Shown: positions 2,155 through 5,256 of the stretch, one piece after another
Layout of the letters: the number at the start of each line of letters is the position of its first letter
How positions within the stretch are numbered: position 1 is the first letter of the stretch
Source: Candidatus Nitrotoga sp. LAW
GTDB taxonomy: Bacteria; Pseudomonadota; Gammaproteobacteria; Burkholderiales; Gallionellaceae
Length of the DNA: 42,575 nt
Direction of reading: 5' to 3'
NCBI GenBank assembly: GCA_003402315.1
Contig: QFXI01000007.1
Coordinates: 1-42,575 of the forward strand
The notes under the pieces: generated by a model
What the model was told of the DNA's origin: nothing
The model's database searches: none
What the model saw: the letters and a program-made list of their open reading frames with translations, nothing else
Translations under genes and position numbers: made by a program

Positions 2155-2790
2155 TTACCACTTTAACATGCGCTTTCCCAGCCACAAGCCAGCGATACCG
2201 AAAACTATCATGGGCAGATAGTGCCACCCGACAACGTGCATGATCGAATCATTTACCTCGTGCAGCCTCAACCACAATGCTCCGACACTGAAGGCGGAAA
2301 GCAGCGCGATGCTGCCCGCACAGTGATAATGCGTACTGGCAAATTTGCGCATCTCGAAAAATGTCCAAGCTGCGGGCAAAAGCGACATAAGTGTGATGCC
2401 GATGGTGCACTCAAAACTATGTACAGGTAGCGGAGCTGGCGGATTATCAGCCTGCCATGCGAGAAACATCACCAGAACAAATAGCGCAAACATAACAACC
2501 GGTGTAAACGCAAGCCGACGCATCTGGTGCAGATCGGGAAAAGCAAGCAGCGCGGCACTGACCGAGGTGGCGATGAAAATGCCGGCAAGCACTGCGATTT
2601 CAGCGACAAACCATGGCTGATGCAGTTTTAACATCAGGTCTGGGCGCAGGCCGGAAAGCACGAGCGACAGGAGAAGATAGGTCGCCGCCCATCCCATCCA
2701 TTTGAGGCTTAGCATGTAAGGGTGCGGGGCAGGCTTCACTGCCGCCGTATCCTGTGCCAATCTGTTGATAAGATCGTCGATGTTTTCCAT
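2155..2790 (-). CDS. nrsF: NrsF-type membrane anti-sigma factor (DUF1109)
   Basis: 211 residues with a short cytoplasmic N-terminus (ENIDDLINRLAQDTAAVKP) and about six hydrophobic segments (residues 30-48, 61-83, 94-112, 127-144, 157-175, 188-204). This is the layout of NrsF/DUF1109 anti-sigma factors, which hold an ECF sigma factor inactive at the inner membrane. Its only two cysteines are C128 and C157; in Caulobacter NrsF a conserved cysteine pair is needed for stress sensing, so these may be the redox switch (inference). Its ATG overlaps the stop of the sigma gene (TAATG at 2790), so the two are translationally coupled. With chlorite dismutase and MsrB next door, the likely signal is reactive chlorine species. 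Confidence 0.82.
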   Translation of the reverse strand: MENIDDLINRLAQDTAAVKPAPHPYMLSLKWMGWAATYLLLSLVLSGLRPDLMLKLHQPWFVAEIAVLAGIFIATSVSAALLAFPDLHQMRRLAFTPVVMFALFVLVMFLAWQADNPPAPLPVHSFECTIGITLMSLLPAAWTFFEMRKFASTHYHCAGSIALLSAFSVGALWLRLHEVNDSIMHVVGWHYLPMIVFGIAGLWLGKRMLKW

Positions 2791-3329
2791 TATCTTTCCA
2801 GTTTATCTCTCAATACCTTGTAGGCGCGATGCGCCGCGACTTTTACCGCAGACTCATTCATACCCAGCTTTTTCGCCACCTCTTTGGCGGTGTAGCCCTC
2901 CTGATGCAACAGCCGCAGGATGGTCACCTGCTTTTCTGGAAGTTTTTGGATTTCCCCGCTGATGGATTCGTAGCTAATAGCGGTTTCGGTTACATGCCCA
3001 GACAAGCTCTCTTCCAGTTCGTCGAAATCAACGGCATGCCGCAGTTGGTCGGAATAATGCACCCGCAAATAATCCTGCAAACGGAATTTGGCGATGGCGT
3101 ATACCCATGGCTTATAGGGGCGGTTGCCGTCGTAAGTATGGCGGGCCTTATGAATAGAAATCAGGGTTTCCTGCAACAAGTCATCCACATCGTTAGTGAA
3201 GCTGAGGCGTTTCGCAAGGAACGGACGCAGGAAGCGTGAGGTTTCCATCAGCAAGGAAGCATAGGCCAGCTGGTCTCCATCCAGGGACTGCCTCATCAAC
3301 GCTGCAAAATTATCGTTGTTATCTGTCAT
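2790..3329 (-). CDS. sigF: ECF RNA polymerase sigma factor, SigF/NrsF-linked type
   Basis: 179 residues. Region 2 is seen at about 24-95 (DVDDLLQETLISIHKARHTYDGNRPYKPWVYAIAKFRLQDYLR) and region 4 at about 128-178 (LPEKQVTILRLLHQEGYTAKEVAKKLGMNESAVKVAAHRAYKVLR). No anti-sigma-like extension is present; the partner is the overlapping nrsF gene. The pair is divergent from cld. It resembles the SigF-NrsF pair of Caulobacter and of chlorate/perchlorate-related bacteria such as Azospira suillum, where it controls a reactive-chlorine response. The start at 3329 has only a weak ribosome-binding site; Met12 (3296) is an alternative, since typical family members begin near the RQSLDGDQLAYASLL segment. 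Confidence 0.88.
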   Translation of the reverse strand: MTDNNDNFAALMRQSLDGDQLAYASLLMETSRFLRPFLAKRLSFTNDVDDLLQETLISIHKARHTYDGNRPYKPWVYAIAKFRLQDYLRVHYSDQLRHAVDFDELEESLSGHVTETAISYESISGEIQKLPEKQVTILRLLHQEGYTAKEVAKKLGMNESAVKVAAHRAYKVLRDKLER

Positions 3330-3351
3330 CCGAGTTACGCGAATTATTTAT

Positions 3352-3377
3352 GTAACTATTTTTCTGGCAAATCCGAA
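3352..3377 (+). promoter_or_regulatory. Predicted SigF-type ECF promoter for cld
   Basis: GTAACT at 3352-3357, a 16-nt spacer and CGAA at 3374-3377. This matches, with one mismatch, the GTAACC-N16-CGAA motif known for Caulobacter SigF, the NrsF-controlled ECF factor. It lies in the divergent gap and points toward cld, placing the start of transcription near 3383-3385. A reversed copy of the -35 element (GTTAC, 3334-3338) lies just upstream, but no good -10 follows it. Confidence 0.6.
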
Positions 3378-3380
3378 TGT

Positions 3381-3405
3381 ATCAGCACGAGACACTCGTG
3401 CTGAT
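3381..3405. repeat. Perfect inverted repeat at the predicted cld transcription start
   Basis: ATCAGCACGAG (3381-3391), loop ACA, then CTCGTGCTGAT (3395-3405): 11-bp arms with no mismatch. It begins 4 nt after the predicted SigF -10 element. It is either an operator for a dimeric regulator covering the start site, or a 5' stem-loop of the cld mRNA. No U-run follows, so a terminator is unlikely. Confidence 0.8.
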
Positions 3406-3520
3406 CATTTTACGATACCGGGTCATTTGCGATGACGCCATTTATCCATTTAAATAGGAGATTCAAATGAACAAACTTTTTTATACTGTATTTTCTTTTT
3501 TTCCGAAAAGGAGCTTAGGC

Positions 3521-4339
3521 ATGAGCAAGATTACTGCAACCATTCTGTCAATCTGCCTTCTTCTGGCAGGAGGCAGTGCCATGGCACAACAAGGAAGCAT
3601 GTCGGAGCCGGTGGATCGTGCAAAAATCCTGACTGCACCAGGTGTTTTCGGCGCATTCTCCACTTACAAAATCCGCTACGAGTATTACAAACTTTCCTCA
3701 GCCGAACGCAAGGGTGCTGCCGACGAGGTCATGGCGGTGGTCGACAAGCACAAGGACAAGGTCATTGTAGATGCTTATCTGACACGGGGCTTCGAAGCCA
3801 AGAGTGATTACTTCCTGCGCGTTCATGCCTATGACGCGGCAGCGGCACAAGCCTTCCTGCTCGATTTTCGCGCTACCCGTTTCGGTATGAATTCCGGGGT
3901 CACCGAAAGCCTAGTTGGCATCACCAAGGCACTCAACTATATTACCAAGGACAAATCTCCCGACCTCAACAAGGATTTGACAGGCACAACTTATTCTGGC
4001 GACGCGCCGCGTTTCGCCTTCATGATTCCTGTGAAGAAGGGTGCGGAGTGGTGGAATCTGACGGACGAGCAGCGCCTGAAAGAAATGGAAACCCATACAC
4101 TGCCGACACTGGCTTATCTTGGCAATGTTAAGCGCAAGCTATATCACTCCACGGGGCTTGACGATACCGACTTCATCACCTACTTTGAAACCAACGATCT
4201 CGGCGCTTTCAACAATCTGGTGCTGTCACTGGCCAAGATACCAGAGAATAAATATAACGTACGCTGGGGCAATCCCGTCGTCATGGGCACGATTCACTCC
4301 ATCGCTGAAGTCGTCAATACGCTTTCAGTGGGGCAATAA
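3521..4339 (+). CDS. cld: Periplasmic chlorite dismutase (clade I)
   Basis: Heme enzyme that converts chlorite to chloride and O2. From the chosen ATG the protein has 272 residues with a signal peptide [22 protein letters not shown] cleaved before QQGSM. In mature numbering the proximal heme ligand is His170 (in KEMETHTLP) and the distal Arg is Arg183 (in NVKRKLYH), the same positions as in Dechloromonas Cld. The C-terminal half ([47 protein letters not shown]) is very close to clade I pentameric enzymes. An upstream in-frame ATG at 3467 also has an AGGAG site, but it adds 18 residues before the signal peptide. The 3521 start has AAGGAG seven bases upstream and gives a clean signal, so I prefer it. 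It probably forms a transcription unit with the two genes downstream. Confidence 0.95.
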
Positions 4340-4475
4340 ACCATTCAAAGCCAATGTAGGATAAAAGTTTGATGGGCTCGGGGTGATTTGTAGAACCGCG
4401 ACCACTATGGAGAAACTTGAAGTTCCGTTGCGTGTCGGAGGCTTTATCAAAACGTATTTTGGCGAGGTGCTGATT

Positions 4476-4931
4476 ATGGATAAATGGGTCTTTGATGCTC
4501 CTGTGGACGGGATTGGTACTATTATTTGGCGGGCACTTCAGAGAGTTCTCTTGTTTATGTTGTTCGTCACAACCACACAAGCTGTGGGGATTCCAGACGG
4601 CACGAAGGAGCGGCCTTTGGATGCCAATGCGCTTAATTTTCAACGCCAGTTGATCGTATTCGAAGCCGCCGACTGCGCGTATTGCAAGCAATTCGAGTCG
4701 GAAGTCCTCGGTCACTGGCAAGGCGACATTGTGGTTACCCGCACCTTAAGCACAAGCCCTCCCTCCGATTGGAAACTGGGAAAAATTCTGTTCGCCACGC
4801 CGACCATCGTTCTCTTCGAAAAGGGGCGCGAAGTGTCTCGGTTTACCGGTTACAGCGGCGACCAGTTGCGCTTCTGGAAATGGCTGGGCTACCAAGTTGC
4901 TGACGCCCGAACAGAAGAAAATTGCGTTTGA
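4476..4931 (+). CDS. Thioredoxin-fold protein, membrane-anchored or secreted
   Basis: 151 residues from the ATG at 4476, with GAGG nine bases upstream; the frame is open back to a GTG at 4383. Residues 15-36 form a hydrophobic signal or anchor ([21 protein letters not shown]). A thioredoxin-like domain follows, with C67-A-Y-C70 ([16 protein letters not shown]) and the cis-proline segment ATPTIVLF. This suggests a periplasmic disulfide reductase of the SoxW/thioredoxin_2 kind. Its last 35 bases overlap the msrB coding region. Since that MsrB has a single cysteine, this protein is the obvious candidate for recycling it (inference). The redox partner that would reduce it is not in the window. 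Confidence 0.75.
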
Positions 4932-5256
4932 AAGCGGCACCGAACGCCCCTTCACCGGCTCGCATCTCGATGAAAAACGTTCTGGCACATTTGTCGACCC
5001 GGTCACCGGCGCGGCGTTGTTTCGAAGCGACACAAAGTTCGACAGCGGCACTGGCTGGCCAAGCTTCTTCAATCCGGTCAAGGGGGCGATCACCGAGCAT
5101 GTCGATGTCGCACACGGCATGCGGCGAGTCGAGGTGAGGAGCGCCAGTTCCGGCATCCATTTGGGACATGTTTTTGACGATGGGCCTCCGCCTACCCACA
5201 AGCGTTACTGCATCAACGGCAATGTGCTCAAGTTCGTGCCAGACAATACCAAATGA
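4897..5256 (+). CDS. msrB: Methionine-R-sulfoxide reductase MsrB, single-cysteine type
   Basis: 119 residues, the full length of an MsrB domain: [49 protein letters not shown], and the catalytic cysteine C105 in [14 protein letters not shown]105 is the only cysteine. The two zinc CxxC motifs are absent, and the position of the usual resolving cysteine (GCGWPSF) is Thr52 (GTGWPSF), so the sulfenic acid must be reduced directly by thioredoxin or by the overlapping CxxC protein. The start is a TTG at 4897 inside the upstream gene; no ATG fits the family N-terminus, so translation is probably coupled. No signal peptide is seen in this reading. If the upstream gene and this one were joined by a frameshift, the product would be an exported Trx-MsrB fusion. 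Confidence 0.9.

Follow-up and report, generated by a model that had tools for sequence, protein, structure and literature searches.

The extracytoplasmic function (ECF) sigma factor SigF and its anti-sigma factor NrsF have been described in Caulobacter, where the consensus promoter GTAACC-N16-CGAA was established and NrsF was reported to need two cysteines (PMC3511200). In Azospira, SigF activates mrpX and yedY1 (PMC5748585), and a related pair of the DUF1109 type, together with its operon of methionine-rich peptide and methionine sulfoxide reductase (Msr) genes, was reported to be induced by hypochlorous acid (PMC8315932). Hypochlorite has been described as a side product and inactivator of chlorite dismutase (Cld) (PMC4623255), and the survey of Barnum and Coates (2022, PMC9751292) found sigma/anti-sigma factors sensing reactive chlorine species (RCS) and MsrB among the neighbours of Cld, as well as two acquisitions of clade-4 Cld by Nitrotoga. 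The locus described here brings such parts together on contig QFXI01000007.1 (C7), which in its whole length of 42,575 nucleotides is the window of this analysis and belongs to the 2.81-Mb genome of Candidatus Nitrotoga sp. LAW, assembled in 33 contigs. It consists of sigF and nrsF, the divergent cld, and the domains of a thioredoxin-like protein (Trx) and MsrB, and it is likely to be a reactive-chlorine response module that arose by recombination and lies next to F-type conjugation genes. The presence of cld beside an RCS-sensing sigma/anti-sigma pair and Msr, with the transfer of Cld into Nitrotoga, is already published, so that the novelty of this association as such, suggested by a first-pass annotation of the same DNA, is not supported. 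The new part is the join that places cld behind the promoter and start of an mrpX-type gene, that is, a gene of the MXKDX peptide type. Such a replacement was not found in the open-access literature, supplements excepted; in the passages of Barnum and Coates (2022) consulted the word promoter has 0 occurrences, and neither the mrpX join nor a split fusion is mentioned there.

The join is read from three separate blastn alignments. The first pairs the segment from about 3200 to 3338-3383 with sigF-promoter regions at five Gallionellaceae loci, the second pairs the segment 3453-3495 with the beginning of the L083 peptide gene (81% over 43 bp), and the third pairs the segment 3498-3593 with the cld leader and start in L011, a Rhodocyclaceae metagenome-assembled genome (MAG) (80% over 96 bp), the sequence type switching near 3498 to a chlorate-reducer-like cld. 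Within the middle segment, 24 nucleotides (3456-3479) are identical to the L090 sequence carrying the ribosome-binding site and peptide-gene start, and a 21-nucleotide piece of them recurs at the peptide-gene starts of L087, L090 and L098 and in 12 copies of the window's own unit, with no other occurrence among the 134 loci compared. The old first codons (L090 counterpart MNKLSYALLSLC) continue in frame into cld, which has two in-frame starts, one at 3467, inherited from the peptide gene, and one at 3521 with its own ribosome-binding site. The latter is probably the start proper to Cld, since a matching start codon and ribosome-binding site are present in the relative L011, where cld is followed by a molybdoenzyme of the dimethyl sulfoxide reductase family (TIGR03479, 576 bits, below the cut-off). 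Because the three alignments meet within a few bases, cld probably stands where the body of a SigF-controlled mrpX-type gene once was, and has become the first predicted SigF output.

The promoter ahead of this join is an exact match to GTAACY-N16-CGAA, the single one in the 42.6-kb window (0.06 expected; at least one match in 6 of 100 shuffles), and it faces cld. Together with the leader and start codon, which belong to the family-wide set of SigF targets, it bears out the proposal of the first-pass annotation that cld is a probable target of SigF. Directly behind the predicted -10 element stands the sole inverted repeat of at least 10 bp with arms within 60 bp across 1400-5600; the predicted cld leader folds with z -3.4. 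None of the other 24 motif sites in this comparison of 25 is followed by such a repeat, and the one at 3381-3405 is possibly a 5' mRNA hairpin or an operator. The coordinates of the features are collected in Table 1, and the gene families, confirmed with Pfam and NCBIfam, agree with the five genes and the layout first proposed, namely NrsF, the ECF sigma factor, Cld, the Trx-like protein and MsrB.

Table 1. Features of the sigF-nrsF-cld locus and its neighbourhood in the window
Feature	Position	Strand	Evidence or remark
nrsF, membrane anti-sigma factor (DUF1109/NrsF family)	2155..2790	-	PF06532, E 1.7e-42
sigF, ECF sigma factor	2790..3329	-	Sigma70_r2, Sigma70_r4_2
SigF-type promoter GTAACT-N16-CGAA	3352..3377	+	sigF-cld gap, faces cld; T for C at position 6
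Perfect 11-bp inverted repeat	3381..3405	.	5' leader predicted for the cld mRNA, directly behind the predicted -10 element
Remnant of an mrpX-type (MXKDX peptide) gene: ribosome-binding site, start codon (3467), first codons	3453..3502	+	
cld, lineage-I chlorite dismutase, signal-like N-terminus	3521..4339 (open frame from 3467)	+	PF06778, E 7e-27
Thioredoxin-like CAYC domain, signal-like hydrophobic N-terminus	4476..4931 (open frame from 4383)	+	PF13098, E 2.3e-7
MsrB domain, frame differs from that of the Trx domain	4897..5256	+	PF01641, E 4.6e-43
F-type conjugation genes traG, traH, traF, traC, trbI/traB	5592..16681	-	mobile neighbourhood

The regulator half is of a kind common in the family. 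The succession of an ECF sigma gene and a DUF1109/NrsF membrane protein gene identifies a SigF/NrsF pair, and the window SigF has identities in the 60s to low 80s of percent to SigF at other Gallionellaceae loci; NrsF, with 39 bits against an NCBIfam equivalog cut-off of 300, is accordingly a family member and not an ortholog of the Caulobacter protein. The search for NrsF in 158 genomes of the family gave 60 matches in 58 of them, 3 being the window's unit, and from the 57 others 29 were examined, one of which had no sigF in its stretch, leaving 28 loci. The exact motif was present within 350 bp upstream of sigF, pointing away from it, at 20 of the 28, while a reversed control pattern was found at none of 32 loci (the window and three cld loci from other bacteria added to the 28). 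The fetched stretches contained relatives of MsrB at 15 of the 28 sigF loci and of MsrA at 3. Genes for methionine-rich MXKDX-type (MrpX-like) peptides with a signal-like start were present at seven of the nine loci read for peptides; against penta_MxKDx three were tested, with L083 and L087 over the cut-off and L090 below it (27 vs 41 bits). In three Nitrotoga genomes sigF-nrsF faces an MsrB gene with a signal-like start (L072, L075, L076). An origin of the window pair as a vertical Nitrotoga copy was rejected, the window NrsF falling outside the supported group of these three.

Such loci with exported MsrB, MsrA or MXKDX peptide (L072, L075, L076, L083-L106) resemble the window in genes, promoter, divergent layout, leader and start, but no cld was found at any of the 28 examined. 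The likeness extends to the hypochlorite response with SigF-NrsF-MrpX-YedYZ in Azospira suillum and to perchlorate islands (PMC5748585, PMC4623255), where SigF likewise goes with NrsF and chlorine-linked targets, and the start of the mrpX-type target is still visible in the window. The window differs in that it keeps of the peptide gene only the promoter, leader and first codons, with cld in its place, and no member of the YedY/YedZ family was found among the 30 window open reading frames (ORFs) scanned. The contrast drawn at first sight with systems of methionine-rich peptides holds, and the locus seems to be derived from such systems. SigF targets differ between loci within the genus Nitrotoga. 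Two further arrangements were seen on the way: at L074 (870-3525) the motif precedes a small secreted protein containing Met and Cys and a bufferin maturase-type MNIO enzyme (over the cut-off), and at L071 (932-3095) it precedes another secreted protein.

The product of the acquired gene is a full-length lineage-I Cld, whose residues 49-287 align without gaps to the solved chlorite dismutases 5a13/5a12 (E ~1e-110). It keeps WWN...H...KRKLYH, the WW, His and Arg region of known Cld included. Its identity to the Cld of Ideonella dechloratans and Alicycliphilus denitrificans is 74.0% and 75.6%, respectively, and in both of these the cld adjoins chlorate reductase genes. A pentapeptide MXKDX protein is encoded directly after cld on the Ideonella/Alicycliphilus plasmids (L015 8995-9282, L016 8977-9264), and it is of the peptide family to which the gene start ahead of the window's cld belongs. 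Of 399 genomes of the order searched for Cld, 14 gave matches, which in 11 cases were only short and partial and concerned a distant form. A second Cld in the genome is 58% identical to the window Cld; its type occurs in 15 of 19 genomes of the genus, the present one included, and the window type in 3 of 19. In a tree of 24 Cld sequences the window protein and seven others, including the chlorate-reducer types, form one group (100/100), and the 15 genus copies with one from another family form a second (100/100), in agreement with the two acquisitions reported by Barnum and Coates (2022, PMC9751292). The second, core Nitrotoga Cld (L004 9292-10134, contig C18) lies beside genes that look by eye like those of riboflavin synthesis.

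The nearness of the window Cld to that of chlorate reducers would suit a remnant of a (per)chlorate respiration island. This origin is extremely improbable and was rejected, since no perchlorate or chlorate reductase was found among the 30 scanned ORFs of the window, no gene of the whole genome exceeds the cut-off for type II reductases, and the regulator half is of the Gallionellaceae type. The weak matches below that cut-off lie on contigs C33 and C23, the former in a frame of 1169 residues with a twin-arginine-like start, which looks like a candidate for the alpha subunit of nitrite oxidoreductase. Nitrite oxidoreductases reduce chlorate to chlorite.

Several observations weigh against a SigF-controlled chlorine response as set out here. 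Across the genome the motif shows no enrichment (8 matches vs 19 for the backward control), and the seven matches outside the window's site fall inside mechanically called ORFs. At 8 of the 28 family loci the motif is missing upstream of sigF, although at two of these, L071 and L074, it sits behind nrsF. The exact motif facing sigF is absent from the window and from all 28 family loci, the window site in this direction having one mismatch and a longer spacer, so that an autoregulation of sigF as in Caulobacter finds no support here. With a second, genus-wide Cld present, the window copy may be redundant. As for the sensor, Cys128 of NrsF is kept in 31 of 31 aligned sequences, but no second conserved Cys column was found among the 30 NrsF of the family; the family thus has one invariant cysteine against the two reported for Caulobacter NrsF, a protein compared by report and standing outside the alignment, and the trigger or signal may differ in detail from that of Caulobacter. 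The missing enrichment and the two-start arrangement ahead of cld would also fit a constitutive expression of cld from another promoter, with SigF acting elsewhere only. This alternative is improbable, since the promoter, leader and start of mrpX type stand directly before cld, and the scan for sigma70-like and terminator-like sites, which found about as many in the window as in shuffles, gave no sigma70-like site between 3377 and 3521.

Matches to the Trx protein were found in 12 of 369 genomes of the class and in 27 of 399 of the order (the own genome counted in both), and none against plasmids by tblastn. When MsrA, Trx and MsrB domains were sought in the 39 other loci fetched for Trx, the Trx and MsrB domains were joined in one protein in 31 relatives (29 single-ORF loci, with L048 and L111), that is, everywhere both were found, and MsrA preceded them in 27 of these 31; in the remaining 8 of 39, several of which were weak or cut by a contig end, tblastn found no MsrB. 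An interpretation of the window's Trx and MsrB as two ordinary genes was rejected. Exported-looking MsrA-Trx-MsrB fusions occur in many genomes of the order (L046-L048, L052, L053, L107-L130), with a domain order different from that of Neisseria PilB, which is Trx-MsrA-MsrB. The nearest architecture to the window is that of L111, from the same family, an exported Trx-MsrB without MsrA. Both this protein and the MsrA-Trx-MsrB fusions (27 of the 39 loci) share with the window the Trx and MsrB domains, CxxC and RYCIN, but the window lacks MsrA, nothing convincing of which was left upstream of Trx, and its Trx and MsrB stand in different frames. The SigF motif was found near none of the 29 Trx-MsrB fusion loci scanned.

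The alignment of the window changes frame at 4890-4897, in the domain linker, so that no one-frame fusion is encoded. Trx probably starts at ATG 4476, preceded by a Shine-Dalgarno-like GAGG, and the MsrB alone has no signal-like N-terminus. Against the L046 fusion the identity is 85% over 117 residues for MsrB and 65% over 99 residues for Trx, within the range among relatives and hence without a sign of long decay. In the genomes of Candidatus Nitrotoga sp. SPKER and HW29 both frames are 100% identical to those of the window, with no base difference there; the frame change, being common to three genomes, is thus not an error of a single assembly, yet all three derive from one recent element. 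The frame change may mean decay or two separately translated domains. A functional split, with an exported thioredoxin and a separately started cytoplasmic MsrB or a low-level frameshift fusion, would suit the position of the frame change at the linker with both domains whole (a point raised post hoc), and Neisseria PilB is reported to make periplasmic and cytoplasmic forms from one gene by internal reinitiation (PMC6210582). It is nevertheless rather unlikely, as no clear ribosome-binding site precedes TTG 4897, no known shift-prone site was seen by eye, the domains are fused in the 31 relatives, and the MsrB has no signal-like start; programmed frameshifting as the default reading was rejected. 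A repair of methionine sulfoxide by the window pair is doubtful, because the frame change separates its domains at the linker, and the self-contained Trx/MsrB repair proposed earlier is not supported, with the domains out of frame and an MsrB without a signal-like N-terminus. Elsewhere in the genome an MsrB-MsrA pair with signal-like starts was found (C29:40095-41077), so that periplasmic Msr repair need not depend on the gene of the window.

The locus adjoins the F-type tra genes (TraG, TraH, TraF, TraC, TrbI), and beyond about 25 kb ordinary chromosomal-looking genes follow, such as those for siroheme synthase and an ammonium transporter. No integrase was found among the 30 larger ORFs of the window, those covered by the scan, and the element may be plasmid-derived or integrative. 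A near-identical copy is present in the two other Nitrotoga genomes, SPKER and HW29, whose Cld is 100% identical to that of the window: from about 692 to 12336 the window and these records show 2 base differences, and the two records are mutually identical across the fetched 16,870 bases. Such near identity in three genomes points to a recent common origin. The complete unit is limited to these 3 of the 19 genomes of the genus; the expectation of the first-pass annotation that the neighbourhood is conserved holds for sigF-nrsF with its promoter, common in the family, and fails for the whole unit, which is nearly identical where present and recent. Fragments of an IS4-type transposase were observed at 25-438, at the left contig edge, where the match to the other two Nitrotoga records ends.

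With so few differences, there has been no time for selection to show, and the unit could be a recent and partly decayed cargo, in which cld came to lie behind a stress promoter by accident, the Trx-MsrB gene has already broken down, and the needed activity comes from the second, chromosomal Cld. The frame change within the fusion gene and the second Cld type in 15 of the 19 genus genomes, this one included, agree with it. This explanation is nonetheless unlikely, given that sigF, nrsF and cld keep open frames with full family matches, that the promoter exactly fits the consensus, and that the unit is retained in three genomes treated as separate species.

Returning to the response module, we infer its regulation, signal, chlorite source and activities from the gene identities, the promoter motif, the chimeric join, the frame change and the near identity in three genomes, all read in the sequence itself. 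NrsF would keep SigF at the membrane until an oxidant acts, probably hypochlorite or a related species, and the released SigF would transcribe rightwards from 3352-3377. In related Gallionellaceae, such predicted promoters precede secreted methionine-rich scavenger peptides and/or Msr enzymes; here, with cld apparently spliced in directly behind a peptide gene's ribosome-binding site and roughly twelve initial codons, Cld would be the first induced product and would destroy chlorite in the periplasm. The likely source of this chlorite would be chlorate reduced by the cell's nitrite oxidoreductase as a side reaction. The Trx-MsrB gene would be co-transcribed; given its frame change, its thioredoxin domain would probably be exported, its MsrB hardly or not at all. 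More tentatively, and with somewhat less than even confidence, a mobile element may have rewired a hypochlorite-type sigma switch from sacrificial methionine-peptide defence to enzymatic defence, and the switch may sense the leakage of Cld itself as a feed-forward control of chlorite, since this enzyme forms hypochlorite as a side product and is inactivated by it (PMC4623255).

In this case the entry of a detoxification gene into a stress regulon through horizontal transfer can be followed nearly base by base, the promoter, leader and first codons of one gene running straight into the own leader of another. It suggests a transferable and inducible chlorite defence in some nitrite oxidisers and bears on their survival of chlorination and on chlorate as an inhibitor of nitrite oxidation, with the precise prediction that cld is induced through SigF. 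In a Gallionellaceae MAG (L012 1-1503) another sigF-type gene faces cld, with exact SigF motifs in both directions, and cld may have come under SigF on more than one occasion. Of the two other cld loci compared, L011 has an exact motif pointing toward sigF and a one-mismatch motif toward cld, and at L014 the sole motif points to sigF, with a spacer one base shorter.

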